Assembly: GCA_944368925.1 (NCBI GenBank)
Contig: CALVXG010000004.1
Span: 169,650-233,649, forward strand
Direction of reading: 5' to 3'
Source of the DNA: an uncultured Clostridia bacterium
GTDB taxonomy: Bacteria > Bacillota > Clostridia > Christensenellales > Borkfalkiaceae
Length of the DNA stretch: 64,000 nt
In this document: positions 1,052-40,949 of the stretch, one piece after another
Numbering within the stretch: the stretch's first letter is position 1
How the letters are laid out: each line of letters opens with the position of its first letter
The notes under the pieces: model-generated
Told to the model about the DNA's origin: nothing
What the model saw: the letters and a program-made list of their open reading frames with translations, nothing else
Databases searched by the model: none
Made by a program: the position numbers and the translations under genes

Positions 1052-2899
1052 GTGTCTGACGTAAGGTTAAACAACATCTGCAAAGTTTACGACAGCAGGG
1101 AAAGAGGGCGCGGCGGAGTGCTTGCCGTTAAAAACTTTTCAATGGACATACGCGACGGCGAGTTCATCGTGTTCGTAGGCCCTTCCGGGTGCGGCAAATC
1201 TACTACCCTGCGCATGATTGCGGGGCTTGAAGATATTTCGAGCGGAGATTTGTACATCGACGGAACGTATGTAAACGATGTCCCCGCAAAGGACAGGAAC
1301 ATCGCGATGGTGTTCCAGAACTATGCGCTTTACCCTCATATGACGGCGTACCAGAACATTTCTTTTGGGCTTACTTTGCAAAAAATTCAGGAACCCGTCT
1401 ATGAGGAAAATGAAGAAGTAAAAGCGGTACTCGCCGAAATCGACGCCTTAAAAAATGAGTTTGCCCTTATCGGCAAAAAGAACGCAGCCGGGGAAAAGAA
1501 GATCGATTCTATCGAAAAGAGCAACGCCGCTTATTCAAAATCGCTCGATGCGCTCACCAAAAAGATTGCGCATCTGAAAAACAGAGGCATGCACCAAAGC
1601 TCTGTCCGTGCCGCGGTTTCAAAGACTGAAGAAAGGGTCAAATCGCTCAATAAAGCAATTTCAGAAGGCTTGAAGCAGATCGAAGGCATAATTTCCGATA
1701 TAAACGGAAGCAAGACGCGTATGTCTGAAATCAAAAAGGCAATTCTTGAAAAACAGCAGTCGATTGCCGGCTATCAGTTAAAGCGAATAGATCAAAAAAA
1801 GATTGCCGAACTCAACAAATCGCTTGCCTATTACCGCAGGCTTGCCGTTTCTGATGAGGCAATCCGTAAAAAGGATGAGGCCGAACTTCAAAGATTGGAA
1901 AGCGAGCTCAATTTAATAAACAAGAACGGCAGCCTTTCGGAGGAACAGCAGTTCAGAGCGGAGGGGCTTCAAGACCTTATCCGGCGTTATCGCGAAGAGC
2001 TGGATATTCTGGCGCAGAGGAAAATTTCCATCGAGCAGAATATAAGCCGCAATCAGGGCGAGATAGAACATTATTCTCAAACCCCCGTGCCTGTATTCAA
2101 AACCAGACATTATACAAAGGCTGAGATCGACGAAAAGGTCATGCGCGCGGCGGAGATACTTGACATTAAGAAGTTGTTGCGCCGCAAACCGAGAGAAATG
2201 TCCGGCGGTCAGCGTCAGCGAATAGCTCTTGGAAGGGCGATAGTGCGCGAGCCTAAGGTGTTCCTTTTGGACGAGCCGCTCTCTAATCTCGATGCAAAGC
2301 TGCGCACTTCCATGCGCTCGGAGATTGTAAAGTTGCATAAGCAACTCAACACCACTTTCATCTATGTTACTCACGACCAGGTAGAGGCGATGACGATGGG
2401 TACGCGCATAGTCGTAATGAAGGACGGCGAGGTGCAGCAGATAGACACTCCTGTAAACTTGTTTGATAACCCCGTCAACACCTTTGTAGCGGGATTTATA
2501 GGTACTCCGCAGATGAATATGTTCGGCGTTGATATGCAGGCTTGCGGCGACAAAATCAACTTTACATTTGAAGACGGTTTGGTGCTATGCTTTGAAAAAG
2601 CAAAAGTGCGCGAGATAAAAGACGAATATCTTGACGGACAAACACATCGTGTGGTTATGGGAGTGCGTTGCGAAAATCTGTTCCTTACTGAAAAAGGGAA
2701 AGGATTCACTTGCAAAGCTTCCGGTATAGAGCTTCTGGGCAGCGAGACAAATATTTATACTTCGGTAGAGGGCGTAAATGTAACGCTTAAACTCAACTAT
2801 CGCCCCGATGTTTCCGTCGGCGATGAAATTTATGTGGGTATGGATGAGAGCAAGTTGTATCTTTTTGACTCCGTTACCACAAAAACAATATTAAAATAA
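1052..2899 (+). CDS. Sugar ABC transporter ATPase (MsmX/UgpC type) with a ~240-residue coiled-coil insert
   Basis: This is the nucleotide-binding subunit of a CUT1 carbohydrate importer. The start is GTG with GGAGG about 10 bases upstream. Visible motifs are Walker A GPSGCGKST (residues 43-51), the Q-loop Gln89, the signature SGGQ (384-387), Walker B FLLDEP, a D-loop and the switch His in VTHDQ, followed by a C-terminal TOBE/MalK-type regulatory domain. In MalK-family proteins the Q-loop and signature are about 53 residues apart; here they are 295 apart. The extra ~240 residues (about 114-354) are Lys/Glu/Gln/Leu-rich heptad-like sequence, a predicted antiparallel coiled coil. It sits in the helical subdomain that faces the permease coupling helices. 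All catalytic motifs are intact, so the protein should be active. The ATPase is encoded beside its own binding protein and permeases, unlike the shared MsmX of many Bacillota. Confidence 0.93.
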   Translation: MSDVRLNNICKVYDSRERGRGGVLAVKNFSMDIRDGEFIVFVGPSGCGKSTTLRMIAGLEDISSGDLYIDGTYVNDVPAKDRNIAMVFQNYALYPHMTAYQNISFGLTLQKIQEPVYEENEEVKAVLAEIDALKNEFALIGKKNAAGEKKIDSIEKSNAAYSKSLDALTKKIAHLKNRGMHQSSVRAAVSKTEERVKSLNKAISEGLKQIEGIISDINGSKTRMSEIKKAILEKQQSIAGYQLKRIDQKKIAELNKSLAYYRRLAVSDEAIRKKDEAELQRLESELNLINKNGSLSEEQQFRAEGLQDLIRRYREELDILAQRKISIEQNISRNQGEIEHYSQTPVPVFKTRHYTKAEIDEKVMRAAEILDIKKLLRRKPREMSGGQRQRIALGRAIVREPKVFLLDEPLSNLDAKLRTSMRSEIVKLHKQLNTTFIYVTHDQVEAMTMGTRIVVMKDGEVQQIDTPVNLFDNPVNTFVAGFIGTPQMNMFGVDMQACGDKINFTFEDGLVLCFEKAKVREIKDEYLDGQTHRVVMGVRCENLFLTEKGKGFTCKASGIELLGSETNIYTSVEGVNVTLKLNYRPDVSVGDEIYVGMDESKLYLFDSVTTKTILK

Positions 2900-2910: not shown

Positions 2911-4743
2911 ATGAAAAAGAAGTTAATTGCGCTTGCTATATCCTCTGTACTTGCAGCAACATGTCTTGCCGGTTGCGGTGGCGGCGGTGATGACGGAGCC
3001 GGCAATGGAGAAAGAATAACTTTTTGGGGTATAACCGACCAATATACTTCAAGCAGTTACAGTCAGCTGGTCGATGCCTACAATGCAGGTCAAGGCAAAA
3101 TTGACGGGGTTTATGTAAAGTATTCGCCTAAAACCGACTCTTCGGCGAACCATATGTCATATTGTGCTTCGGCAAGGGGTACGGTTGACATAATCGGGGT
3201 GAGCGACCGTTATGTATTCAATAATATCGCACAGGGGTTCTATACAAACCTGCAGGATTATATCGATGATTCTTCCACGTATACAAAGAATGCCGACGGG
3301 GAAACTTATTTCAGCGTCGATAATTATGCGGCGGGAAACATAGACAGATTCCGTTTCAATAAGGAAACAAGCGAAGCGGGCGAAGGCGAAGACTTATATG
3401 CGCTGCCTCTCGTTGCCAACGCCAGCGTTATCTATTACAACGAAGATTATTTTACTCAAAAAAACATCAACATTATTTCCGTAACGGAAGAGGAACTCGA
3501 AGCTTACAACAAGGCGAACGGAACTTCGTATGCGCCGAGGGGATATGCCGAATATACGGTAGACGCAATGCCCGCCGCAGGACTTAAAACTTCTGAAAAT
3601 CTTGAGGATGAGGAAGTTGTAAAGGTATTCAACAATCTCATTCCCATGAGCTTTCTCGAAGTGAATACGCTTAGTAAATATTTCACGAGAGAATACAATA
3701 AACAATCTCCTTCGCTTTACGGCGTGCTCAACGAGTGGTGGTTCTCGCACGGCTGGGCAGTAGGCGGCGACTGCGTAAAGTGGGATGAGGATATGGGACA
3801 GTATAAGTTCACGCTCGGCGACGAGCAGCCCAATTATCTGGTAACTGAAGCCGTCACCGTAAACGGTACCCCCTATGACGCAGGCGACATATTGAGTTAT
3901 GCCGACAGGAACTGGGTTCTCGATAATTCGTCCTCGGCGGTAGTATCAAGCTTGTACGAACTGCCTTCCCAGTACGAACAGTTCAGGGAGTTCTGCGCCT
4001 GGTCGCAGGTAACGGGCAAAAAAGTTGACAATGAAGTTGACGGTTATGGCATTTCACCTTCGCCCGCAACGCTCAACAACAGTTCCAAAGTGCAGTACTT
4101 TACGTCGGGCGAAGTGGCAATGCTTGTTGACGGCACTACCGAACTCGACCCCGTGTATAATGCGCTCGTCGGCAAAACGGAGTGGAATATTGCGCCGATA
4201 TATACTTATCGTGAATTTGAAGGCGAAGATCCCGCAGGAAGCGGTACGTTAAAGGTCATCGGAAAGGAATATGACGGCGTAGAGTTCACCGGCGAAGTGA
4301 AGGAAGTGAACGGCACTCCGATCGTGGGCAAGCTGTCCGGTTCGTCACAGAATTTCGGCTGGGCTATTCCCGCAAATTCCTCACATAAAGATGCTGCATG
4401 GAAGTTCCTGCAATATCTTACTTCCGCCGAAGGTCAGAGCTATTTCGTGGCAAACGATGCGGGCGCTCCTTCCGTAAGTTCGTACATCAACAGTCCCGAA
4501 TATTACGATAAAGACAATAAAAAATGCGATAATTACAGGGCGATATCCATAATGGCCGAGGCCTGTACTATAGGCGACTGGTCTTACTTTGAAAACGGCG
4601 AATGGATATCCGATTGGTCCCTTGAACTCAACGGCCCTGTAAGAAACGGCGAAACGTCGTTGACTGAATTCTTTGATCATCAACAGGGACCTACGGATAC
4701 GATACTTGCGGGATATAAGTTCAAATTGCACGGTAAAGAATAA
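2911..4743 (+). CDS. Sugar ABC transporter solute-binding lipoprotein
   Basis: Extracellular binding protein of the CUT1 importer. The start at 2911 is chosen because GAGGTG lies 5-10 bases upstream; an earlier in-frame ATG at 2899 overlaps the ATPase stop but has no good site. A short Lys-rich n-region, a hydrophobic core and an LAGC lipobox are followed by a Gly-rich linker, so it is a lipoprotein anchored to the membrane. At 610 residues it is larger than typical UgpB/MalE proteins (400-450). The C-terminal part has the FGWAIPANSSHKDAAWKFL segment typical of the SBP_bac_1/SBP_bac_8 family. The ligand is probably an oligosaccharide freed from arabinose- or rhamnose-containing glycans, inferred only from the enzymes downstream. 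Confidence 0.9.
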   Translation: MKKKLIALAISSVLAATCLAGCGGGGDDGAGNGERITFWGITDQYTSSSYSQLVDAYNAGQGKIDGVYVKYSPKTDSSANHMSYCASARGTVDIIGVSDRYVFNNIAQGFYTNLQDYIDDSSTYTKNADGETYFSVDNYAAGNIDRFRFNKETSEAGEGEDLYALPLVANASVIYYNEDYFTQKNINIISVTEEELEAYNKANGTSYAPRGYAEYTVDAMPAAGLKTSENLEDEEVVKVFNNLIPMSFLEVNTLSKYFTREYNKQSPSLYGVLNEWWFSHGWAVGGDCVKWDEDMGQYKFTLGDEQPNYLVTEAVTVNGTPYDAGDILSYADRNWVLDNSSSAVVSSLYELPSQYEQFREFCAWSQVTGKKVDNEVDGYGISPSPATLNNSSKVQYFTSGEVAMLVDGTTELDPVYNALVGKTEWNIAPIYTYREFEGEDPAGSGTLKVIGKEYDGVEFTGEVKEVNGTPIVGKLSGSSQNFGWAIPANSSHKDAAWKFLQYLTSAEGQSYFVANDAGAPSVSSYINSPEYYDKDNKKCDNYRAISIMAEACTIGDWSYFENGEWISDWSLELNGPVRNGETSLTEFFDHQQGPTDTILAGYKFKLHGKE

Positions 4744-4751
4744 GGGGGTGC

Positions 4752-5711
4752 ATGATGGAAAGAGTAGCGACGGGGCGTATATCGCTTGATTTGCATAAAA
4801 AGAAGAAGCTTTCGGGCGAAAAGATATTCGCCTATGTATGTGTGTGCATTCCTATTATCGGCTTTATTCTTTTCAGTTTAGTGCCTCTTGCGATTTCGTT
4901 CATTTCAATGTTCACCACTATGGAATATTATGACCTTTCCACAATGACATGGAATAAGTTTGAAACATTCAAGGTGGTTTTTTCGGATAAAGATTTGTAC
5001 AAGTCGCTCCTTGTAACGGTCATGCTTGCATCAAGCCAGTTCATAAGCCTTACCATAGCGTTGTTTATATCTTTTCTGCTTTCAAAAAAGCCGAAAGGGA
5101 GAAAGATATTCCAAATAATTTATTTTATTCCGTATATATGCAGCAGCGTTGCTACGGCGTATATGTGGATGACTATGTTCGATCCGAATTATGGTATCAT
5201 AAATACGATTCTTACAGGTATATTCGGTGAAGGCGCAAGGGTTAATTGGAGTTCCGATGCGGCAGCCTATGTGTTTGCAATTATAATAACCATTGTTTGG
5301 CAGGCTCCCGGTTATGGCATCGTTATGTATAAGGCTGCATTTGATGCTGTAAATCCGTCGCTGTATGAAGCGAGTGAGATAGACGGCGCATCTGCCTGGA
5401 AAAAATTCTGGCGTATAACGTTTCCGAGCATTGCCCCGACGACATTTTTCCTTTTGATGACAGGCATTATCGCGGGTATGCAGACTTTCGACATTGCGCG
5501 GCTGTTTGCGGTATCGTTCTTCCCCGATGCCTGGACGGGCACGGCAGGACCGAACAATATCGGACTTACGACGGTAATTTATATCTACAATAAGGGCACG
5601 TTATATTTCAATATACCGGAAGCTTCCGTTGCTTCGTGGATGCTGTTTATTATAATTCTTGTGTTGTCTCTTGTGAACTATAAACTCAGGAAAAGGTGGG
5701 TGAATGTATGA
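4752..5711 (+). CDS. Sugar ABC transporter permease 1 (MalF/UgpA type)
   Basis: Membrane subunit of the importer with about six hydrophobic segments, the first near residues 26-50. A cytoplasmic EAA loop, YEASEIDGASAWKKFWRI, sits around residues 204-222 and docks onto the ATPase. The cytoplasmic N-terminal tail is Lys-rich. It starts at ATG 4752 (a second ATG follows directly) eight bases after the binding-protein stop, with a GGGGG-rich ribosome binding site. The stop overlaps the start of the second permease in an ATGA arrangement, which indicates translational coupling and a heterodimeric permease. Confidence 0.93.
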   Translation: MMERVATGRISLDLHKKKKLSGEKIFAYVCVCIPIIGFILFSLVPLAISFISMFTTMEYYDLSTMTWNKFETFKVVFSDKDLYKSLLVTVMLASSQFISLTIALFISFLLSKKPKGRKIFQIIYFIPYICSSVATAYMWMTMFDPNYGIINTILTGIFGEGARVNWSSDAAAYVFAIIITIVWQAPGYGIVMYKAAFDAVNPSLYEASEIDGASAWKKFWRITFPSIAPTTFFLLMTGIIAGMQTFDIARLFAVSFFPDAWTGTAGPNNIGLTTVIYIYNKGTLYFNIPEASVASWMLFIIILVLSLVNYKLRKRWVNV

Positions 5712-6664
5712 AGGCTTTCAAAAGTATCGTCGGCTCATCGGAATCCATACACGACCTTTCTCCGCGCGTAGCTTCATATAAAGAAGTGAAGGAGCGCAGA
5801 AGCAGAAAGACTACGGGAATTATAGGCAAAATGGTAATGTTTACTTTATTGCTTATATATGCTGTTTGTCTCATGTTGCCGTTTTACGTGTTGTTTGTAA
5901 CAAGTATAACGCCATATCAAGAGCTTATGGGTTCGATGAGCTTTATATGGTGGCCGGAAGAAGTTACTTGGGATGCATTCATTCCGTTTATCTCTACCGA
6001 TAATATTCTCGCGGACGACATCGGCATTCCCATATTGCACGGATTTTTCAATACGTTATGGTCGACATTGCTTACGACGATCGTTTCGTTGTTTGTGAGC
6101 GGTCTGGCGGCGTACAGCTATTCAAAGATCAGGTTCAGGGGAAAAGAAGCTCTATTCATGTTCCAACTCGCTACAATGATGATTCCCATGGCAACGATGA
6201 CCGTGCCGTCTCTCATTTGGTATGAGACGCTTGGATGGACGCATAGTTGGTTTCCAATCATCATTCCGGGGCTTTTCGGCGGCGCAACTACAATATTCTT
6301 TTTGCGCAGTTATATGGCGTCCGTTCCAAACGAAACTCTGGAAGCCGCTAAAATCGACGGACTCGGTTCCTTCCGCATATTTTTAAAAATAGTTCTTCCG
6401 CAAACAATTCCCGCATTTATAGCTCAATTTATATTTGCATTTGTAGGCGGATACAACAATTATATGGGGCCGCTGTTGTATTTAAGCGATAATCCGCAGA
6501 ATTATACTTTGCAGTTGGTGGTCACGGAACTCAGAACTTTTTATAATCAACCGGGACAAGTGTGCGCAAGCTGCCTTATAGCGCTTATTCCGTTGATAAT
6601 AGTTTATATTATCTTCCAGCGCTTCTTCATAGAGGGCATATCAGTAGGTGGCGGCAGGGAATAA
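5708..6664 (+). CDS. Sugar ABC transporter permease 2 (MalG/UgpE type)
   Basis: Second membrane subunit of the CUT1 importer. I choose ATG 5708 over the upstream in-frame GTG 5696 because an AAGGTGG site lies at 5693-5699 and the ATG overlaps the previous stop as ATGA. The protein has an unusually long charged N-terminal tail of about 45 residues before the first membrane segment, six predicted TM helices and an EAA loop (ETLEAAKIDGLGSFRIF) near residues 210-228. The tail could touch the coiled-coil insert of the partner ATPase; that idea is inference. A family-typical short cytoplasmic C-terminus ends the protein. Confidence 0.93.
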   Translation: MKAFKSIVGSSESIHDLSPRVASYKEVKERRSRKTTGIIGKMVMFTLLLIYAVCLMLPFYVLFVTSITPYQELMGSMSFIWWPEEVTWDAFIPFISTDNILADDIGIPILHGFFNTLWSTLLTTIVSLFVSGLAAYSYSKIRFRGKEALFMFQLATMMIPMATMTVPSLIWYETLGWTHSWFPIIIPGLFGGATTIFFLRSYMASVPNETLEAAKIDGLGSFRIFLKIVLPQTIPAFIAQFIFAFVGGYNNYMGPLLYLSDNPQNYTLQLVVTELRTFYNQPGQVCASCLIALIPLIIVYIIFQRFFIEGISVGGGRE

Positions 6665-6702: not shown

Positions 6703-7872
6703 ATGAGCAAAGTATCTGACAGCGAATATCAATTTAATTCTCCTTTTTTGCTGTCAAAAAGAATAGTCGCATATCTCATTGACAGTCTGTTGCTTATACT
6801 TGCGGTAATACTCTGTTTTCAGCTTGTAGATATGATGTATGTTAATTTCAATACAAGGCTGAAAGAGATAAATTCGCAAATGACATCGGAGCAGAACGAT
6901 ATTATAAGGTGCCTTGCAGATTCTGGGCTGATGCAATACGATGAACAAGCAGGTATTGCTGTTGAAGATGAATTGCAGGGGCAAAATTTTATTTATTCGA
7001 TGGTTTTGTCTACCCTCGGCGGCAATGTCTCAGACAAGGCGGCATATAAAGGCGAATATATCTTTTCGGATATGGGACAAACAGATCGCTCTTTCATCTA
7101 TTATTACGCGCAGTTCAAGCCTGCCCACAGCGACGGATTCGTCGGCTATGATGAAAGCAAAACAGGCAGGGCGTATGCAGAAAGCTTGTTTTTGTCGGCG
7201 TGCAATAATTCGGAAAACGGTTATTTCGGGCAGTCTTTCCCTCTGCTTGAAAGGAACGTAGCCGTCGCGCTCGATCGTCTGATAGTCAATCGTGAAAACA
7301 GTTGCGAAATTGACGGAGTGACCTATTACGGACGCGATATATTTATAGAGCTGTACAATGCGTTCAACTCAGTCCTTGAAGGCGCGCGGGCAGAATTTAC
7401 TCAGTCATACCGTCCGTTTACTGAACTTAACGAAACTTTTTCTTCATCGAGGGAACAGCTCATTAAAATCAAGACGGGTGAACTGTGTATCGCTTATTTT
7501 GCGGGCGCGTTTATCTGTTTTATGATAGTCCCGGCTATTTCCGGCGGCAATTCCGCAGCGCTGCTTTTGCTTCGCGGAAGATGTATAGGGCGTTCAGGTC
7601 TTAAAATGCGTTGGTATAACTATGTTCTCAGATGGATATGCCACAGCCTGTTTTATTTCAGCAACATAATGTTTGTTTTATTGCTCACATATGGCAGATA
7701 CGCTTCTTTTTTCCTGACATGCAACATTGCCGGCGGCTTAAAATTTTATATGCTTTGTCTTATCCCGATAATCGTGATGCTTATATCGTTTGTAATTTTT
7801 GTATTCGACAAATCGGAAAGAAGGACTCTTACGGACAGATTGTCTTTGACTGTTGTCAAGGAGAAGGAATAA
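6703..7872 (+). CDS. RDD-family membrane protein
   Basis: Integral membrane protein of 389 residues with a good AAAGGAGAA site. The N-terminus carries an RDD-like first helix (KRIVAYLIDSLLL, about residues 19-31) and the C-terminus ends with the DRLSLTVV element typical of RDD proteins. Between the first helix and the remaining three to four helices lies an unusually long polar loop (about residues 45-260), probably exposed on one side of the membrane. RDD proteins are poorly defined; some act in ion or solute exchange. Its place between transporter and enzyme genes suggests a membrane role connected with the glycan system, but no function can be given. Confidence 0.65.
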   Translation: MSKVSDSEYQFNSPFLLSKRIVAYLIDSLLLILAVILCFQLVDMMYVNFNTRLKEINSQMTSEQNDIIRCLADSGLMQYDEQAGIAVEDELQGQNFIYSMVLSTLGGNVSDKAAYKGEYIFSDMGQTDRSFIYYYAQFKPAHSDGFVGYDESKTGRAYAESLFLSACNNSENGYFGQSFPLLERNVAVALDRLIVNRENSCEIDGVTYYGRDIFIELYNAFNSVLEGARAEFTQSYRPFTELNETFSSSREQLIKIKTGELCIAYFAGAFICFMIVPAISGGNSAALLLLRGRCIGRSGLKMRWYNYVLRWICHSLFYFSNIMFVLLLTYGRYASFFLTCNIAGGLKFYMLCLIPIIVMLISFVIFVFDKSERRTLTDRLSLTVVKEKE

Positions 7873-7883
7873 TTTAACTGTTT

Positions 7884-8522
7884 ATGAAATATAAGGGAAT
7901 AATTTTTGACCTTGACGGAGTGCTCGTGCATACGGATAAATATCATTATCTGGCATGGAAACAGACGGCCGACCGGCTCGGTATATATTTTGATGAAAAA
8001 ATAAACAATAAGCTACGCGGCGTTTCGCGCATGGCCAGCCTTGAAATCATTCTTGAAGGAAGCACGAAAAAATTTTCTGACGGACAAAAACAAAAACTTG
8101 CCGAAGAAAAAAACTCCGTTTACAGGCGGTATCTTGAAGGTCTTACGCAAAAAGACCTCGGAGAAGGCGTGTTGCAGACACTTGAAAAGTTAAAGGCCAT
8201 GGGTTTTAAACTCGCGGTGGGCAGCAGTTCCCGCAATGCCGTACTTATATTAAAGAAGACGGGAATCTACGGTTTTTTTGACGCCGTATCAGATGGCAAT
8301 AATATTTCAAAGCCAAAGCCTGACCCGGAGGTATTTATAAAAGCGGCGGGAATGCTCGGCCTTATGTGCGGGCAATGCCTTGTCGTGGAGGACGCCGTTT
8401 CCGGGGTGCTTGCCGCAACAGCGGCAAATATGGATTGTGCCGCCATAGGCGATGCCGCAAAACATAAAATAGCAACTTATAATCTTGAAAGTATCAACCA
8501 ATTGACGGATATAGTTTCCTGA
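7884..8522 (+). CDS. pgmB: Beta-phosphoglucomutase (HAD family)
   Basis: Cytoplasmic enzyme converting beta-glucose 1-phosphate to glucose 6-phosphate. HAD motif I is FDLDGVL near residues 8-14, with the nucleophile and acid/base Asp pair. The cap contains LRGVSRMASLEIIL, a hallmark of beta-phosphoglucomutases, followed by the KPKPDPEVF motif and the acidic EDA motif (VVEDAVSGVLAA). Length (212) is normal. The ribosome binding site is distant (AAGGAG inside the RDD gene end), so translation may be coupled. Beta-glucose 1-phosphate normally comes from GH65 phosphorylases; no GH65 gene is visible here, and GH94 yields alpha-glucose 1-phosphate, so its supplier must be elsewhere. Confidence 0.9.
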   Translation: MKYKGIIFDLDGVLVHTDKYHYLAWKQTADRLGIYFDEKINNKLRGVSRMASLEIILEGSTKKFSDGQKQKLAEEKNSVYRRYLEGLTQKDLGEGVLQTLEKLKAMGFKLAVGSSSRNAVLILKKTGIYGFFDAVSDGNNISKPKPDPEVFIKAAGMLGLMCGQCLVVEDAVSGVLAATAANMDCAAIGDAAKHKIATYNLESINQLTDIVS

Positions 8523-8551: not shown

Positions 8552-10420
8552 ATGAAAGTAAGTGAAAAAGTCCGTGTAGGCAGCGTATTGGACGATAATA
8601 TTCTTTATGCCGTAAATAATCGCTTAAAGGGACGCAGGATCGCAAAAAATTCAGAAGGCATCAAGTATGCCGAAAAAATAAAAATAAACGGCGTGATGGA
8701 CGATTATGTATCGTTCGTACTCGAACATCAGCTTAAAAACAGGGAAATCTGGCATAAAATATGCGAAGTTTTTTCAACCCGTGAAGATATTGCCGATGAA
8801 GGCTGGCGCGGAGAGTATTTCGGAAAACTCATGCGCGGAGCGGTGTATGTGTATCGCTATACAGGAGATAAAGAGCTGTACGATATTCTTACGGCGGCCG
8901 CGGAAGATCTGTTGTCCCGTCAGGATGAATACGGCAGATTTTCCACATATACCGTTGAAAAGGAATTCTGCGGTTGGGATATGTGGTCAAGGAAGTATGT
9001 ACTCACAGGGCTTCTGCACTACCGCTCGATCTGCAGTGACGAGGTTCTTAAAGAAAAAATACTTTCGGCCCTTGAAAAGCACCTGGATTATATAGTTGAA
9101 AAAATAGGTGGAGGCGAGGGGCAAGTTCAGATTACGGATACATCTTCCTGGTGGGGCGGAGTAAATTCCTGTTCGATTCTTGAACCTGTTGTGGAAATGT
9201 ATAAGCTCACCCGCAAGGAAAGCTATCTTGATTTTGCAGAATATATTATCTCAACGGGCGGCTGCAAAGACGGTAATCTTATTGAACTTGCCATATCCGA
9301 AAAGGCATTGCCGTATAAATATCCCTCGGTAAAGGCATATGAAACCATGTCTTTCTTTGAAGGTGTGTTGGCATATTATGAGGTCACGGGGGCAGAAAAG
9401 TATTATATTGCCGTATGCAATTTTGTTGAAGCCGTCAACGAGAGCGATATAACGCTTATCGGCTGTGCCGGCTGTACCCATGAACTTTTCGATAACGCCG
9501 CGCTTAAACAGACGGAATATAGCGAAACGATAATGCAGGAAACGTGTGTTACCGTCACATGGATGCGGCTGCTTTCAAGATTGTATCTTTTAAGCGGCAA
9601 CGTAAAATACATAGACAGGATAGAGTGTTCGGGGTTCAATGCTCTCTATGGCAGCCTGAATACGCAGGGGAACGAACAATACAGCTTTGAAAGGAAAAAG
9701 TATGTTCCGGCGATGCCGTTCGATAGTTATAGCCCGTTGTATATGAATAAGAGAGGACGCGGTATAGGCGGGTATAAGGAATTTAAAAGCGGGGGTTACT
9801 TCGGCTGCTGTATAGCCATTGCTGCCTGCGGCATAGCTCTTATGCCTCTTACTGCAGTAATGGAGAGTAATAATGGATTTATTATTAACATTTTGTGTAA
9901 TGCCACAGTACAAGGCAAAAATTGTACGCTTAATATAAAAAGTGATTATCCTCGCGATGGTCATAGCATCATAAAAATTAAATGTTCCAAACCAATTTAC
10001 CTTAATTTGCGTATACGCTGCCCGTCATGGTGTAAATCAGTCCGCGTAAAGGCAAACGGCAAGCTTAAACTTACGCAAGGGTATTATACCGTAAGCGGTA
10101 CGTTTAACGATGGGGATATTGTGGAAGTAAAATGGCGCGAAGATGTCCAGGCTGTTCATCTGAATGGTAAGATTGCCTTTACATATGGCCCTCTCGTTCT
10201 TGCGGCGGATGCGCTTAAATCGCATAATAATATCTCTGCGCCAGTTCGTATGCCGGAAGACGGAACGGAATACAAGGTGCTGCCATGCGAAAAAGGCGAA
10301 CTTGTACGTATTGAAGTGGAAACGGAAAACGATATAATTCTCCTTACCGACTATCAGTCGTGCGGCAAGCAATGGTTGAAAAAAAATGCTATAATGTCCG
10401 TGTGGCTAAACGAGGAATAA
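8552..10420 (+). CDS. GH127-type beta-L-arabinofuranosidase (DUF1680)
   Basis: Predicted cytoplasmic glycosidase removing beta-L-arabinofuranosyl units. The fold is an (alpha/alpha)6 barrel followed by beta domains. The key GH127 zinc site is visible: Glu330 and Cys332 in the QETCVTVTWMR segment, and the Cys419-Cys420 pair in YFGCC. This matches the Glu/Cys/Cys/Cys arrangement of HypBA1 (Glu338, Cys340, Cys417, Cys418), where one Cys is the nucleophile. Length (622) fits the family. There is no signal peptide. It starts 29 bases after pgmB with AAAGGAG upstream. Related families GH142/GH146 are possible, but the spacing favours GH127. Confidence 0.85.
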   Translation: MKVSEKVRVGSVLDDNILYAVNNRLKGRRIAKNSEGIKYAEKIKINGVMDDYVSFVLEHQLKNREIWHKICEVFSTREDIADEGWRGEYFGKLMRGAVYVYRYTGDKELYDILTAAAEDLLSRQDEYGRFSTYTVEKEFCGWDMWSRKYVLTGLLHYRSICSDEVLKEKILSALEKHLDYIVEKIGGGEGQVQITDTSSWWGGVNSCSILEPVVEMYKLTRKESYLDFAEYIISTGGCKDGNLIELAISEKALPYKYPSVKAYETMSFFEGVLAYYEVTGAEKYYIAVCNFVEAVNESDITLIGCAGCTHELFDNAALKQTEYSETIMQETCVTVTWMRLLSRLYLLSGNVKYIDRIECSGFNALYGSLNTQGNEQYSFERKKYVPAMPFDSYSPLYMNKRGRGIGGYKEFKSGGYFGCCIAIAACGIALMPLTAVMESNNGFIINILCNATVQGKNCTLNIKSDYPRDGHSIIKIKCSKPIYLNLRIRCPSWCKSVRVKANGKLKLTQGYYTVSGTFNDGDIVEVKWREDVQAVHLNGKIAFTYGPLVLAADALKSHNNISAPVRMPEDGTEYKVLPCEKGELVRIEVETENDIILLTDYQSCGKQWLKKNAIMSVWLNEE

Positions 10421-10421
10421 A

Positions 10422-12383
10422 ATGAATTCCGATGTAAAAAAACTTACTTATGCCGAAAAAGTCAGGCTTTTGATGGCGGAAAATTACTGGGGCAACAACA
10501 GCCTCGGCGGAAAGATATATTCTTTTGTAGTGGCGGACGGCCCTCTCGGCTTACGCCGCGCCAAAGATTTGAAGGACGGGGGAGGCAAAGGCTGTTATCC
10601 GTCTGTCGCATATCCTTCCGCGCAGACGGTAGCCCAGACATGGAATAAACGGCTCGCGCGCGAATTGGGTAACTGCCTTGCTTATGACTGTATAGATTTG
10701 GGCGTGGACATACTTCTCGGCCCAGGCATAAATATCAAGCGTACCCCCGTTGCGGGAAGGAATTTTGAATATTTTTCTGAAGACCCCATTCTATCGGGAA
10801 TTATGGCTGAAGAGTATGTTCGCGGCGTACAGGAAAAGCATGTCGGCGCAACGGTAAAACACTACTGTGCAAATAATCTTGAATACTGCCGACACTATGT
10901 TTCTTCGGAAGTGGCCGAAGCCGTTCTGCGCGAAATTTATCTCAAACCCTTTGAGCTTGCCGTAAAGGCGAAACCCTATATGGTCATGACGTCGTACAAC
11001 CTTGTAAACGGCGTGCGTATGTCGGAAAATGCCGACCTTATCAGGGTGTTGCGCAAGGAGCTTGGTTTTGAAGGGGTGATAGTGACCGATTGGGAGGCCT
11101 GCAAAGACGCCGAAGCGGGTATAAAAGCGGGAACTACAATGATTTTTCCCTTCAACGAGGACAGACAGAGGGAACTTGAAAAAATCATTGAATCCCATTC
11201 CGTTCCCGATGAAACGGTTGACGAGGCTGCGCAAAAAGTACTTGAACTTGCACAGAAATGCGAGCGGGATAAACCTCTCCGCAAGGCGGAAAAAACCGTT
11301 GCAGAGCGTATGGAAACGGCAAAAGGCATTGCGGAAGAAGGTGTTGTTCTTCTTAAAAACAACGGCGTTTTACCGCTCGGCAAACAGCAGAACATACTCA
11401 TGACGGGCGCGCCGTGTAAAGTTTATTACGCCGGAGAAGGTTCAAGCAAGGTTGTGCCGTGCGAAGAGTATGATGGGCTCGATGTTGAATATGAAAGGCT
11501 TGGCGGAAAAGTAAAATATTGTCGTTCCACTTACTTTGAGTTGATGACTCCGTGGATGAACAGACTGTGCGGCGCAGATATTCCCGTCTGCTGTAAAATG
11601 GCAGAGCTGGCCGATGTGACCGTAATATGTGTCGGCGATGAGCCTGGCGTTGAATCTGAATTTTATGACAGGGAAAAAATTACCCTTTCCAAAGTGGAGG
11701 AGCAGGCTATATCAGATATTTCGTCGCACGCAAAAAAGACGGTCGTAGTCGTTTATGCGGGCGCACCCATAGATATGACCGCCTGGATAGATAAAGTGGA
11801 TGCCGTAGTATGGGGCGGCTTCGGCGGACAATGTTCGGCAAAGGCGATAGCCGCCGTGCTTGCGGGCAACGTAAATCCTAGCGGCCGTCTTGCCGAAACT
11901 TTTCCGCTGCATTTATCTGACGTTCCCTCCGAACAGAGCTACCGCGATTCGTTTGTAATAAAATACAGCGAAGGACTGAACGTGGGCTATCGTTATTTCA
12001 ATACTTATGGTAAGCCTGTTTTGTTCCCGTTCGGGTACGGACTTTCGTATTCGGAGTTTGTTTATTCCGATCTTTCGGCGCGGTACGAAGATGGAGTAAT
12101 GCGCGTATGCCTCTGCGTTGAAAATATATCGGAGGTAAGCGGAAAAGAGGTCGTTCAGGTGTATATCGGAAGCGGTCATGAGGGTTACCCTTTAAAGGAG
12201 TTGAAAGCTTTTGAAAAGGTTACGCTGAACGCGCGTGAAAAAAAGAAGATCTGCATAAATATCGCATTGAGTGAACTTCGCCATTTTGTGGACGGGGAGT
12301 GGAGGCGACCCGCCGGAGAATACACCGTTTATATAGGCAAGAACGTCAGTGATATTCAACTCTCGGCAAAAATAAATATATAA
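10422..12383 (+). CDS. GH3 beta-glycosidase
   Basis: Cytoplasmic exo-glycosidase, probably a beta-glucosidase or beta-xylosidase. The N-terminal TIM barrel includes the substrate-binding KH motif (GATVKHYCANN) and the nucleophile Asp223 in GVIVTDWEA. The alpha/beta sandwich starts near residue 300 (GVVLLKNNGVLPL), and a C-terminal fibronectin-III-like domain follows (FPFGYGLSYSEF onwards). There is no PA14 insert and no signal peptide. It follows GH127 by one base, so the two are translationally coupled. Substrate specificity cannot be assigned from motifs alone. Confidence 0.9.
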   Translation: MNSDVKKLTYAEKVRLLMAENYWGNNSLGGKIYSFVVADGPLGLRRAKDLKDGGGKGCYPSVAYPSAQTVAQTWNKRLARELGNCLAYDCIDLGVDILLGPGINIKRTPVAGRNFEYFSEDPILSGIMAEEYVRGVQEKHVGATVKHYCANNLEYCRHYVSSEVAEAVLREIYLKPFELAVKAKPYMVMTSYNLVNGVRMSENADLIRVLRKELGFEGVIVTDWEACKDAEAGIKAGTTMIFPFNEDRQRELEKIIESHSVPDETVDEAAQKVLELAQKCERDKPLRKAEKTVAERMETAKGIAEEGVVLLKNNGVLPLGKQQNILMTGAPCKVYYAGEGSSKVVPCEEYDGLDVEYERLGGKVKYCRSTYFELMTPWMNRLCGADIPVCCKMAELADVTVICVGDEPGVESEFYDREKITLSKVEEQAISDISSHAKKTVVVVYAGAPIDMTAWIDKVDAVVWGGFGGQCSAKAIAAVLAGNVNPSGRLAETFPLHLSDVPSEQSYRDSFVIKYSEGLNVGYRYFNTYGKPVLFPFGYGLSYSEFVYSDLSARYEDGVMRVCLCVENISEVSGKEVVQVYIGSGHEGYPLKELKAFEKVTLNAREKKKICINIALSELRHFVDGEWRRPAGEYTVYIGKNVSDIQLSAKINI

Positions 12384-12392
12384 AATACTGCT

Positions 12393-14648
12393 ATGATAAT
12401 TTCAGATAAGTTTTTCAGCGGGGACGGCCGCATATGTACTTTGCACAGGCATGTCCCCGCGCCGCTTTTCAGGCATTCTTTCAATATCGGCAAAGCGCCG
12501 TCGCTGTTTGAGGTCACCATTTGCGGGCTGGGCGTCTACGAGTTGTTTGTAAACGGCAGGCGGGTAACAAAGGGGTATCTCGCTCCTTACCGCAGCAATC
12601 CCGAACACATTGTGTATTACGATAATTACAATATCACGCCGCATATCCGCACGGGTGAAAATGTTGTGGCAATCGCACTTGGCAACGGCATAATGTCGTC
12701 CGAAATGCCTGTATGGGGTGCTGATAAATATCCGTGGCGCAGCGCGCCTCGCTTTGCGTTTGCGGCTGAAGCGGACGGGAAGTTTCTTTTCGATGGTTCT
12801 GCGTTTGTGACGCGCGGCGGCGAAGTTACGTTCAACGATTGGCACTGCACCGAGAGCATAGATGCCCGTCTTGCAATAGAGGGCTGGAACGATACGGGGT
12901 TTGATGATTCTTCCTGGGAAAATGTATCGCCCGCGCGGGAGCCGTCGGGTGAAAAAAAGATTTGCACCGCAGAGCCTGTAAAGGCATACGATTACAGAAA
13001 ACCCGTAAAAATGTGGCAGGGCGAACGCGGATTTATATTTGACTTCGGTATAAGCGGCGCAGGCACTTATAATCTTAAAATAAAGGGCGAATGCGGACAG
13101 CAGATAGAAGTTTATACATCAGATTGCGTCATCGAAGGTAAAAAAATCACCAACAGAAATCTTTATTGCTGGTCGCTTACCGATGAAATGGCCGATAAAG
13201 TACAGCACGATTTTTTAACTCTTTCGGGAAAGGCCGACGAGTTTGAGCCGCGCTTTACCTTCCGCGGTTTCAGATTCGCTGAAATCACGGGCATCACACC
13301 CGAACAGGCCCGGTCATTAGATATAACGTTCATTCTGTTTTCAAACGGCTTTGCGTCGGCAGGCTCATTTCTGTGTGACGACGATCGGATCAATAATTTG
13401 CAACAATATGTTCTCAATTCCGACAGATCTAACTTCATACATTTTCCGCTCGATTGCCCGCAGAGGGAAAAGAACGGTTGGACGGGCGACGCCGCACTTT
13501 CATGCGAACAGATGCTGCTCAATTTCGATTGCGCAAATTCGCTCTTTGTATGGCTGCAGAATATCTGCAAATCGCAGAGGGGAAACGGTTCTTTGCCGGG
13601 CATAATTCCAACTTATACCTGGGGATACGACTGGGGTTCCGGCCCTGCGTGGGACAATGTTCTGTTCGAGTTGCCGTGGAGGATATATGTTTATACGGGC
13701 AGCGACGAAGCTATAAAACTATGTGCGCCGCATATGCTCAGATACCTTGAATATATGTGGTCGAAGCGCGACGGGGCGGGGTTGTTTGCCTACGGGCTTG
13801 AAGACTGGCTTCCCGTAAACGTGCATACGCCGCTGTGCGTTACGGATACAATAATGTGCAAGTCCATTGCCGATACAGCCGCAAAGTGCTTTTCGGTAAT
13901 CGGTATGGAGGAAGAGGCACGGTACGCGTCTTCGCTGTCGTATAAAATCAAAAAAGCGTTCCGTAAGGAAATTCTCCGACCTCATGAACTTGACGGCCCC
14001 CTCGGCGCAAACGATACAACGGCGACGCACGCAATGTCTGTTTATTACGGAATGTATGAGGAAGATGAGCTTGACTCGGCAATATATAAGCTGAAATGCC
14101 GCATAAAGCAGTCGGGCGGGCATATCGATTTCGGCGCACTGTGCAACAGAGTTTTCTGGCGCGTAGTCGGTGAACATATGGGCGTGGATGAAGCGCTCGA
14201 TATAATGCTCAATAAAACTTATCCGTCGTTTGCTGCACTGCTTGGAAACGGAATTACAACGCTTTGGGAAGGTTTTGAATACTTTGAAGGCGACATGGCG
14301 CATGTCCCCGCCAAAATTCCTCAGGGCTTCTGGTCATTCAATCACCATTTCTGGGGCGATATTTCGGCGTTTTTTTACAGGTATCTTGCAGGAATAAGGA
14401 TAGATAAGCCGGGAAAGGTAAATTTTGCGCCGCTCTTTTCCGAAAGATTGAAATATGTATGCGCAGAACACACTTTCAAACAGGGCAAACTGCGCGTTGA
14501 AATTTGCCGCAACGGTGATGTCGCCCATTGCAAAATATACGTTCCCAATGGCATATGTGTACGCGTAACTCCTCTGCAAGGCTGGACTTCCGATATTGCC
14601 GAACTTGATTGCGGTGAGAATGAAGTGTTTTTTTCAAAACTAGGCTAA
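12393..14648 (+). CDS. GH78 alpha-L-rhamnosidase (first copy)
   Basis: Predicted to release terminal alpha-L-rhamnose. N-terminal beta-sandwich domains (VYELFVNGRRVTKGYLAPYR, about residues 50-70) precede the (alpha/alpha)6 barrel. The family signature DCPQREKNGWTGDA, with the catalytic acidic residue, lies around residues 353-366, and a C-terminal beta domain follows. There is no signal peptide. Length 751 is typical. A second GH78 gene at 49443-51602 is only distantly similar, so the two loci each carry their own rhamnosidase. It starts nine bases after GH3 within the operon. Confidence 0.9.
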   Translation: MIISDKFFSGDGRICTLHRHVPAPLFRHSFNIGKAPSLFEVTICGLGVYELFVNGRRVTKGYLAPYRSNPEHIVYYDNYNITPHIRTGENVVAIALGNGIMSSEMPVWGADKYPWRSAPRFAFAAEADGKFLFDGSAFVTRGGEVTFNDWHCTESIDARLAIEGWNDTGFDDSSWENVSPAREPSGEKKICTAEPVKAYDYRKPVKMWQGERGFIFDFGISGAGTYNLKIKGECGQQIEVYTSDCVIEGKKITNRNLYCWSLTDEMADKVQHDFLTLSGKADEFEPRFTFRGFRFAEITGITPEQARSLDITFILFSNGFASAGSFLCDDDRINNLQQYVLNSDRSNFIHFPLDCPQREKNGWTGDAALSCEQMLLNFDCANSLFVWLQNICKSQRGNGSLPGIIPTYTWGYDWGSGPAWDNVLFELPWRIYVYTGSDEAIKLCAPHMLRYLEYMWSKRDGAGLFAYGLEDWLPVNVHTPLCVTDTIMCKSIADTAAKCFSVIGMEEEARYASSLSYKIKKAFRKEILRPHELDGPLGANDTTATHAMSVYYGMYEEDELDSAIYKLKCRIKQSGGHIDFGALCNRVFWRVVGEHMGVDEALDIMLNKTYPSFAALLGNGITTLWEGFEYFEGDMAHVPAKIPQGFWSFNHHFWGDISAFFYRYLAGIRIDKPGKVNFAPLFSERLKYVCAEHTFKQGKLRVEICRNGDVAHCKIYVPNGICVRVTPLQGWTSDIAELDCGENEVFFSKLG

Positions 14649-39185: not shown

Positions 39186-40949
39186 ATGGGTAATGTATTA
39201 AAAGAAAGAAAACAAAACTCGTTTATGTCGCTTCAAAACCTCGTCAAGGTTTACCCCAACGGCGAGAAAGCGGTGTACAACTTCGATTTGGATATAGCAA
39301 AAAACGAGTTTATCGTAATAGTCGGACCGTCGGGCTGCGGTAAGTCCACCACACTCCGAATGATCGCGGGACTCGAAGATATAAGCGGCGGAGATATATA
39401 TCTCGAAAGCGAGCTGCTCAACTACAAGCCCAGCAGCGAGCGCAAAATGGCGATAGTGTTCCAAAGCTATGCGCTGTATCCGCAAATGACGGTGTACAAC
39501 AACATCGCATTCCCGCTCACCATAAACAAGTACCCCATGCCCAAAGAAAACGCCGTGCTTAAAGCGAATGCCGAGATAGAAAAACTGTTGTCGACGGTTG
39601 CGTGGAATAAGTTTATCGGCGTGCTGTTCAATGTGTATAACGGCAACGGCAAGGCTAAGGACGAGCAGATAGCGACGATTTTCGGTATAACGCTGTATGC
39701 GGCAAAGCTGCTGTATAAGGCGTTCGGCGCGTACTGTCGGGAAACGCTCGAAAGTTTGGACGGCAAAGCCGAAGAAATTTCCGTCGCGATACGCGCCGAG
39801 CTGAAGCCGCTCGTCGAAGCGGAAAACGCAAAGGTACAAGAAAGCGGCGTAAAGCTCGACGAGGACTTCTGCGAAGTCGACGGGGACGGAAACAAGATAA
39901 TAGAGCCGAGAAAGTATACGCCGTACGAGATAAAAACGCGCGTGTACGAAACGGCGGAAAAGCTCGACCTTATCCCGTACCTGGATAAACTGCCCAAAGA
40001 GCTGTCGGGCGGACAAATGCAGCGCGTCGCGCTCGGACGGGCGATAATCAAAAACGTGCCCGTGTTTATGATGGACGAGCCGCTTTCTAACCTCGATGCA
40101 AAGCTTAGGCTTTCCATGCGCAGCGAGATAGTCAAGCTCCATAACCGCATCGGCGCTACGACGATATATGTTACGCACGATCAGACGGAAGCTATGACAA
40201 TGGCGAGCCGAATAGTGGTAATGAGCCGCGGCTTTATACAGCAGATCGGCACGCCCGAAGAGGTTTATCAAGACCCCGCAAATATATTCGTGGCAAAGTT
40301 TATAGGCAGTCCGTCAATGAACGTGTTTAATATATACTACGACCCCGAAAGCGGATGCTTGGAGCGCAACGACGTAAAAATCCCGTTAAAAGCGGAGTTC
40401 AAAAAAAGACACGACGAGTTTTACGCTACGGCGGTCAATAAGTTCGAGGGTTTGCAATCGAATTTCGACGAAAAGGCGCGAGAGGAAATACTTAAAATAC
40501 TTTCGTCTACGGGCGAGTACAAAGACGAAAAGAAACAGCAGAAAAAGAAAGGATTGATCGCGCTCATAAAGCGACTCATCGAAAAGCAAAAGAACAAAAA
40601 GATCGTCGTTGACGAGTATGCTTACGAAAAAGAGGTGCTCGGCGAAAAGCTGGCGCAATTGAAAACGAACGCGACGGCAAAACACGGACTTCTTGTCGGC
40701 ATACGTCCGGAGCGGATCAAGATAGAAAAAGTCGTTGCGGGCAAAAAGTATAAGGGCGTTGTAAAGGTAAAGTCGACGGTGGTCGAACTTCTCGGCGGCG
40801 AGTACAATATACACTTCGATCTATTCGATAAAGACATGGTATGCAAGCTCGACGCGACCGAAAAAGTCACGACGGACGACGAGCTTGCCGTGAGCTTTTC
40901 TCCCGACGATCTGTATATTTTCGATTTCGTTACGGGCGACAGAATATAA
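39186..40949 (+). CDS. Sugar ABC transporter ATPase with two insertions
   Basis: 587-residue MsmX/UgpC-type ATPase with AAGGTG upstream. Walker A is GPSGCGKST (residues 47-55), the Q-loop Gln is 93, the signature is SGGQ (274-277), and Walker B FMMDEP and VTHDQ are intact. The Q-loop to signature distance is 181 residues against about 53 in MalK, so about 125 extra residues (about 117-243) lie in the helical subdomain. This insert looks partly helical with a hydrophobic stretch (ATIFGITLYAAKLLYKAFGA) and has no visible similarity to the coiled coil of the ATPase at 1052. A second insert of about 85 Lys-rich residues (about 410-498) interrupts the C-terminal TOBE domain before VGIRPERI. Both insertions keep the frame and all motifs. 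Confidence 0.92.
   Translation: MGNVLKERKQNSFMSLQNLVKVYPNGEKAVYNFDLDIAKNEFIVIVGPSGCGKSTTLRMIAGLEDISGGDIYLESELLNYKPSSERKMAIVFQSYALYPQMTVYNNIAFPLTINKYPMPKENAVLKANAEIEKLLSTVAWNKFIGVLFNVYNGNGKAKDEQIATIFGITLYAAKLLYKAFGAYCRETLESLDGKAEEISVAIRAELKPLVEAENAKVQESGVKLDEDFCEVDGDGNKIIEPRKYTPYEIKTRVYETAEKLDLIPYLDKLPKELSGGQMQRVALGRAIIKNVPVFMMDEPLSNLDAKLRLSMRSEIVKLHNRIGATTIYVTHDQTEAMTMASRIVVMSRGFIQQIGTPEEVYQDPANIFVAKFIGSPSMNVFNIYYDPESGCLERNDVKIPLKAEFKKRHDEFYATAVNKFEGLQSNFDEKAREEILKILSSTGEYKDEKKQQKKKGLIALIKRLIEKQKNKKIVVDEYAYEKEVLGEKLAQLKTNATAKHGLLVGIRPERIKIEKVVAGKKYKGVVKVKSTVVELLGGEYNIHFDLFDKDMVCKLDATEKVTTDDELAVSFSPDDLYIFDFVTGDRI

Follow-up and report, generated by a model that had tools for sequence, protein, structure and literature searches.

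A predicted helical arm in the MalK-type ATPase of an operon-encoded sugar importer from a gut Clostridia bacterium

Main finding

The ATPase encoded at 1052-2899 of the window (the whole stretch of 64,000 nucleotides analysed here, from contig CALVXG010000004.1 of assembly GCA_944368925.1) is the probable energy source of a gut bacterium's sugar importer (CUT1, MalK/UgpC-type), and carries an arm of about 230 extra residues in its helical subdomain. The arm is a real, rare and selected addition to a standard CUT1 ATPase; its existence, conservation and position, like the pattern of operons described below, are direct observations. We propose, tentatively and with a probability of about 0.4, that this is a dedicated ATPase whose arm would act as a partner-selection element, making the energy supply private to one operon.

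The ATPase and its operon

The genes concerned, with the two ATPase motifs used as reference points, are as follows.

1052..2899, + strand: MalK/UgpC-type ABC ATPase with helical arm, 615 aa (motifs, sequence and structure matches)
1316..1318, + strand: Q-loop Gln89 (motif reading)
2201..2212, + strand: ABC signature SGGQ, residues 384-387 (motif reading)
2911..4743, + strand: cognate substrate-binding protein (SBP), about 610 aa (Pfam SBP_bac_8/1)
4752..5711, + strand: cognate permease A (MalF/UgpA-like)
5708..6664, + strand: cognate permease B (MalG/UgpE-like)
6703..7872, + strand: RDD-family membrane protein (found in the relative L042; no match in 14 related operon loci)
7884..8522, + strand: HAD hydrolase
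8552..10420, + strand: GH127 beta-L-arabinofuranosidase-like enzyme
10422..12383, + strand: GH3 glycosidase
12393..14648, + strand: alpha-L-rhamnosidase

The ATPase, which starts with a GTG codon, belongs to the MalK/UgpC-type ATPases. It has the complete set of motifs, namely Walker A (residue 43), the Q-loop (Gln89), LSGGQ (SGGQ at 384-387), Walker B (LDEP, 406) and the H-loop (THD, 440), and by gene context it is encoded, as is typical of CUT1 ATPases, with an SBP and two permeases. The best PDB sequence matches were Clo1313_2554 (7x0q) and MsmX (6yir), and the score against NCBIfam NF008653 (UgpC) was 432.6 bits, barely over the cut-off of 432. The alignment to 7x0q reaches residue 614 and so includes the C-terminal MalK-type regulatory domain, and in a Foldseek search the core of the model fitted 7x0q_A with a TM of 0.93 by target length.

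What sets the protein apart is the distance of 295 residues from Q89 to S384, in place of the compact helical subdomain (about 53 residues) that is usual, if not strictly defining, for this class. In E. coli MalK about 53 residues separate the glutamine from SGGQ, and the MalK chains among the Foldseek matches listed, at 299-374 residues, are too short to hold such an arm. Distinct insert-free MalK-like proteins from the fetched loci, many of them close kin of one another, had a spacing of 53 in 57/58 cases and of 64 in the other one; ATPases that were cut or lacked the pattern (including L013, L028, L047, L049, L057, L063 and L091) and other ABC proteins were left out of the residue counts given below.

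The SBP is oversized, its start, judging from the sequence, is likelier to be the ATG at 2911 than the listed ORF start at 2899, and it has relatives with paired permeases across several families of the order. About 220 residues lie between predicted membrane segments 1 and 2 of the RDD protein, a long loop that is probably extracellular, judging from hydropathy and positive-inside reasoning. The same operon also encodes a GH63/trehalase-like enzyme, and its intergenic gaps are 38 bases or less. Upstream are a GH43 gene and one for an 1881-residue protein with an InlB-type repeat; ORF 42-1034 is the tail of this InlB B-repeat protein, which begins upstream of the window (L142:7039-12684). What the importer takes up is probably an oligosaccharide of plant type that contains arabinose and rhamnose.

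Bounds and predicted fold of the arm

Alignments with 7x0q and 6yir are split, running up to residues 113-115 and resuming from 351-356, so about 230 residues are additional. The insert site is the alpha3-alpha4 loop of the helical subdomain, which in MsmX numbering means after R104 to about P107 and before E110 (alignment to 6yir). In E. coli MalK this loop includes K106, a residue that can be cross-linked to the EAA loops of the permeases. The elements of the arm are given below.

1397..2095, + strand: inserted arm, residues about 116-348, about 230 residues (alignment to MsmX/Clo1313_2554 and model; no indels in L042)
1382..1396, + strand: base strand 1, residues 111-115 (AlphaFold2 model)
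1412..1582, + strand: arm helix 1, residues 121-177 (AlphaFold2 model)
1598..1762, + strand: arm helix 2, residues 183-237 (AlphaFold2 model)
1793..1924, + strand: arm helix 3, residues 248-291 (AlphaFold2 model)
1940..2080, + strand: arm helix 4, residues 297-343 (AlphaFold2 model; 46/47 residues identical in L042)
2096..2110, + strand: base strand 2, residues 349-353 (AlphaFold2 model)

The AlphaFold2 model of the ATPase (mean pLDDT 86, pTM 0.65) was built from an alignment of 25 rows, two of which, nearly identical to each other, are the only ones with the arm. It predicts four long helices on a beta-strand base, with block pLDDT values of 78-93, and leaves the MalK core intact. In our reading, taken from the order of the elements and not from coordinates, the four helices would pair as two antiparallel hairpins. 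An internal duplication of these hairpins was rejected, BLASTP giving no hit. The heptad contrast of residues 114-354 lay above that of all 1000 composition shuffles (z 4.2). The arm of the window copy has neither Cys nor Trp and is near-balanced in charge (42 K+R versus 37 D+E); since Cys is absent from it and occurs once in the arm of L042, there is no conserved zinc-hook motif. Searches with the arm alone returned generic coiled-coil families from Pfam, all below their cut-offs, and generic coiled coils from the PDB with no convincing match, and neither recognised a regulator or ligand fold.

Much of this had been anticipated by the sequence-only reading. Its distance of 295 residues against about 53, its intact catalytic motifs and its heptad-like coiled-coil insert in the helical subdomain all hold, the last by the shuffles and by the alignment. 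The insert limits that it gave, 114-354, are slightly tighter by alignment and model, at about 116-348. Prediction of the ATPase alone yielded an arm of four helices in place of a single hairpin, and searches with the insert alone brought up generic coiled coils.

The same reading had likened the layout to that of Rad50 and SMC proteins with no implied relationship, and this comparison stands. Rad50, SMC and RecN have a coiled coil of hundreds of residues between the Q-loop and the signature, with a hook or hinge. The layout of the armed ATPase is alike, but its head is an ordinary MalK head with about 230 residues added, and the Pfam SMC_N score is 26.4 bits, under the cut-off of 40, so that it lacks an SMC-type head. 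In ABCF proteins the arm is sited in the helical subdomain. According to the available part of PMC6723617, such an arm (that of EttA) is charged, coiled-coil-prone and variable in length, lies within the ABC ATPase domain and contacts a partner. ABCF proteins are translation factors with two nucleotide-binding domains (NBDs) and a linker in one chain, whereas the armed ATPase has a single NBD. By analogy, the arm may act as an in-built lever of the ABC ATPase, as ABCF and Rad50 arms do.

Conservation and selection

Another MAG (L042), 89% identical in nucleotide sequence along 9,975 aligned bases, encodes a 615-residue orthologue with the same insert and zero indels. A further contig (L041) is 100% identical across 10,896 bases and may come from the same strain as the window. 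Between the window and L042 the frame and length of the arm are kept at a dS of about 0.4, changes in the core of the ATPase are mostly synonymous, and dN/dS (NG86) comes to 0.12 in the arm, against 0.01 in the N part of the protein and 0.045 in the C part, which indicates purifying selection on the arm. In this the sequence-only reading is supported: the insert is kept by selection. The arm is also the fastest-changing part of the protein, at 90% identity versus 98-99% for the core. Helix 4 shows 1 change in 47 residues and helices 1-3 show 23 in 156 (133/156 identical), a difference with a Fisher p of 0.019, uncorrected and for a helix chosen post hoc.

Distribution of the arm

With the arm as query, only its own gene was matched at E 1e-5 among the 396 genomes searched in the order. 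The full ATPase found no match in 60 relatives (36 of the genus) at E 1e-80, and in 39 other genomes of the genus no match that spans the arm; three P0002-type matches (see below) cover the arm in part, as far as residues 147, 171 and 215. A contig scan reaching close relatives only gave six loci, L041-L046, and the first five, which were read, have the arm in L041 and L042, no arm in L043 and other ABC proteins in L044 and L045. No arm was found in viral contigs or in plasmids. The carriers seen here are accordingly the window's genome, the identical contig and the close relative. In a survey of the phylum, all 150 among the matches listed (hand count) run through the loop, and since these are ranked by E-value they are biased against inserts. 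A search of the open-access full-text literature, outside which most subscription papers fall, found no description of an arm in a MalK-type ATPase.

A widespread armed family, represented by open frames of 580-870 residues, was considered and dropped: in the 30 loci inspected, the spacing of these long frames is the usual 53, or 64 in L089, and what makes them longer is found outside the loop, mainly at the C-terminus. MalK-like proteins whose helical subdomain is normal but whose length is about 610-870 residues occur at L065, L070, L079, L081, L082, L084, L085, L087, L088, L089, L090 and L092. That of L089 (genome G141) has 11 extra residues at the same loop, joins the armed ATPase in the tree without P0002 types, and may be a small intermediate. 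A PotA-like protein of the window's own genome has a Q-to-SGGQ spacing of 71.

A second dedicated ATPase in the window

Beyond what the sequence-only reading had noted, the window encodes a second ATPase, P0002, with a different insert at the same loop.

39186..40949, + strand: P0002, second dedicated MalK-type ATPase, 587 aa, Q-to-SGGQ spacing 181, beside its own SBP and permeases
39528..39914, + strand: P0002 insert in the same loop, residues about 115-243 (about 125 residues), dissimilar to the arm (alignment, model)

The insert is predicted to form five helices of 9-26 residues and short elements on strands 115-119 and 239-243, in a model with pLDDT values of 78-93 at the insert and base strands and with much of the NBD poorly modelled. 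Twelve distinct P0002-type proteins (P0002 and 11 relatives) have spacings of 169-194. Like the armed ATPase they are operon-owned and have a large insert at the same loop, with similar predicted base strands; they differ in that the insert is shorter (113-138 residues) and that the C-terminal regulatory domain holds a second one, of about 100 residues in P0002. All seven with long flanks adjoin both permeases and have an SBP match upstream, and in the four with short flanks (L059-L062) permease B is beside the ATPase; the tally leaves out L057, where the P0002-type frame is cut, and L063, where the match is weak. At L050 the upstream SBP match is about 1.6 kb off and cut by the stretch end.

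The arm and the 12 P0002-type inserts shared only a 17-residue hit (E 0.67), and their profile comparison gave a probability of 0.5%. When both insert types are in the tree, the armed ATPase branches next to the P0002 clade with values of 21/27, too low to count as support; with P0002 removed, it falls with L081 and L089 (97/87), and grouping with the shared ATPases of the genus is not rejected (p 0.37).

Putative shared and dedicated ATPases

The window's own genome (93.7% complete) has about 35 places with MalG-like permeases (39 rows, the last four weak and partial) and, by our reading of scores and sequences, three CUT1-type ATPases: an orphan at C3, the armed ATPase and P0002. The C3 protein has no insert, and within about 7 kb on each side of it there is no match to the window's SBPs or permeases. 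From gene context and spacings, the candidate for a shared ATPase is the one at C3, which lacks an insert, whereas both operon-owned ATPases carry one. Fourteen related SBP-permease loci were fetched, one of them at C16 of the own genome and 13 from other genomes, and in none of the 14 did the fetched flanks contain an ORF combining Walker A with SGGQ. These loci are 7/13 and 7/34 rows of two match lists, picked among the better matches, with L127 and L138 truncated where their contigs end. Such ATPase-less operons presumably use an orphan MsmX-like ATPase.

Aligned with their relatives from ATPase-less operons, whose start codons were untrimmed, the permeases of the armed ATPase show no added cytoplasmic loop, and their N-terminal tails and EAA loops are like those of the others, so the earlier suggestion that the arm binds long permease tails found no support. 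Permease A of the window and of L042 has four extra residues before a conserved W-T-G stretch, an addition that is probably outside the cytoplasm.

The core fold, motifs and C-terminal regulatory domain of the armed ATPase are those of MsmX/Clo1313_2554-type CUT1 ATPases (6yir, 7x0q). These have no insert, and MsmX is an orphan gene, whereas the armed ATPase adjoins, directly upstream, its SBP and permeases and lacks both D77 and R104. E. coli MalK in MalFGK2 is likewise a CUT1 importer ATPase encoded with its transporter, and E. coli MalK and UgpC, both operon-owned, are mutually replaceable (available part of PMC7658222).

Residues near the insert site

In MsmX the alpha3-alpha4 loop contains R104, and alpha4 itself contains E110; the accessible text of PMC7658222 treats D77, R104, E110 and K154 as conserved among NBDs able to replace MsmX. 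By that account all four play a part in NBD-TMD contact or in the conformation of the complex, and of the single mutants D77A fared worst; ABC_Syn, which has Q at the R104 position, nevertheless replaces MsmX (same part of PMC7658222). At D77, R104, E110 and K154 (and N84) the armed ATPase has N, Q, E and K (and N), so that three of the five are kept, and both changes, D77 to N and R104 to Q, are present in it and in its orthologue (2/2). Among the insert-free proteins D is found in 53/58 and R in 56/58, while N at D77 occurs in five. As E is at the E110 position in only 26/58 of them, the MsmX signature is only partial in this order. The P0002 type has kept E110, with D77, R104 and K154 each at 0/12 and N84 at 1/12.

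Discussion

In the mechanism that we propose, the armed ATPase would serve only the importer encoded beside it (SBP 2911-4743, permeases 4752-6664), and most other sugar importers of the species would probably be served by one orphan MsmX-like ATPase. Growing from the alpha3-alpha4 loop of the helical subdomain, which docks on the permease EAA loops, the arm could stabilise docking on the cognate permeases or block docking on many other permease pairs. We infer both its contact with permeases and its setting of specificity, and its fold is a prediction. For partner selection speak the insert's place next to R104 and E110, the loss of D77 and R104, the operon-owned ATPases with inserts, the 14 related operons with no ATPase, the residue losses of P0002 and the purifying selection on the arm. 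Against it count the permeases, which have no added cytoplasmic loop or tail to receive an arm; the retention of N84, K154 and E110; the scarcity of E110 and the occasional N at D77 in insert-free proteins, with the Q of ABC_Syn at R104; the interchangeable MalK and UgpC of E. coli, which are operon-owned and to our knowledge arm-less; the faster change of the arm than of the core; and a model that for the arm derives from two near-identical sequences, covers the ATPase alone and gives the arm no orientation.

Foremost among the alternatives, and unlikely in our estimation, is that the arm is a scaffold, tethering a cytoplasmic partner (the GH127, GH3, rhamnosidase or HAD enzymes of the operon) or clustering transporters, like Rad50 and ABCF arms. 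Several enzymes are indeed encoded in this closely spaced operon, the permeases have no matching feature, and a near-invariant helix 4 next to drifting helices 1-3 is as one binding face would leave it, but no partner was identified and the enzymes are known by Pfam matches. Ranked after it, and improbable, is a lineage-specific accretion, nearly neutral and without specific function, at a loop that is a natural soft spot. The length of the loop does vary elsewhere (L089 and the PotA-like protein), and the arm changes fastest; its frame and length have nonetheless been held free of indels under a low dN/dS, helix 4 hardly varies and the heptad pattern exceeds chance. Less probable still, we consider, is a regulatory arm on which a partner or ligand would control NBD closure in the manner of EIIA-Glc on MalK, though via the helical subdomain. 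Its site between the Q-loop and signature would suit this, and the RDD membrane protein, which has no match in any of the 14 related loci, could be its partner; against this, the arm has no recognised regulator or ligand fold in Pfam or the PDB, and the long RDD loop probably faces outward. An assembly chimera or sequencing artefact, which had been named beforehand as the outcome that would undo the finding, would fit the few carriers of the arm but is contradicted by L042, with its 89% nucleotide identity, equal length, indel-free insert, mostly synonymous core changes and selection against change in the arm, and is highly improbable.

Partner selection may extend beyond this one protein. In bacteria with dozens of importers on one shared ATPase, operons with a private ATPase could have equipped its alpha3-alpha4 loop, the same in each case, with helical domains of unrelated kinds, four-helix in the present arm and small in the P0002 family, that select the partner and insulate one importer from the shared pool, a generalisation that we hold to be doubtful. 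The arm bears on how shared and dedicated CUT1 ATPases pick among many permease pairs, a choice for which work on MsmX indicates charged residues in and around the helical subdomain, together with overall electrostatics (PMC7658222, in the part available). With an insert in both operon-owned ATPases and none in the shared one, the arm can be deleted, grafted and tested.
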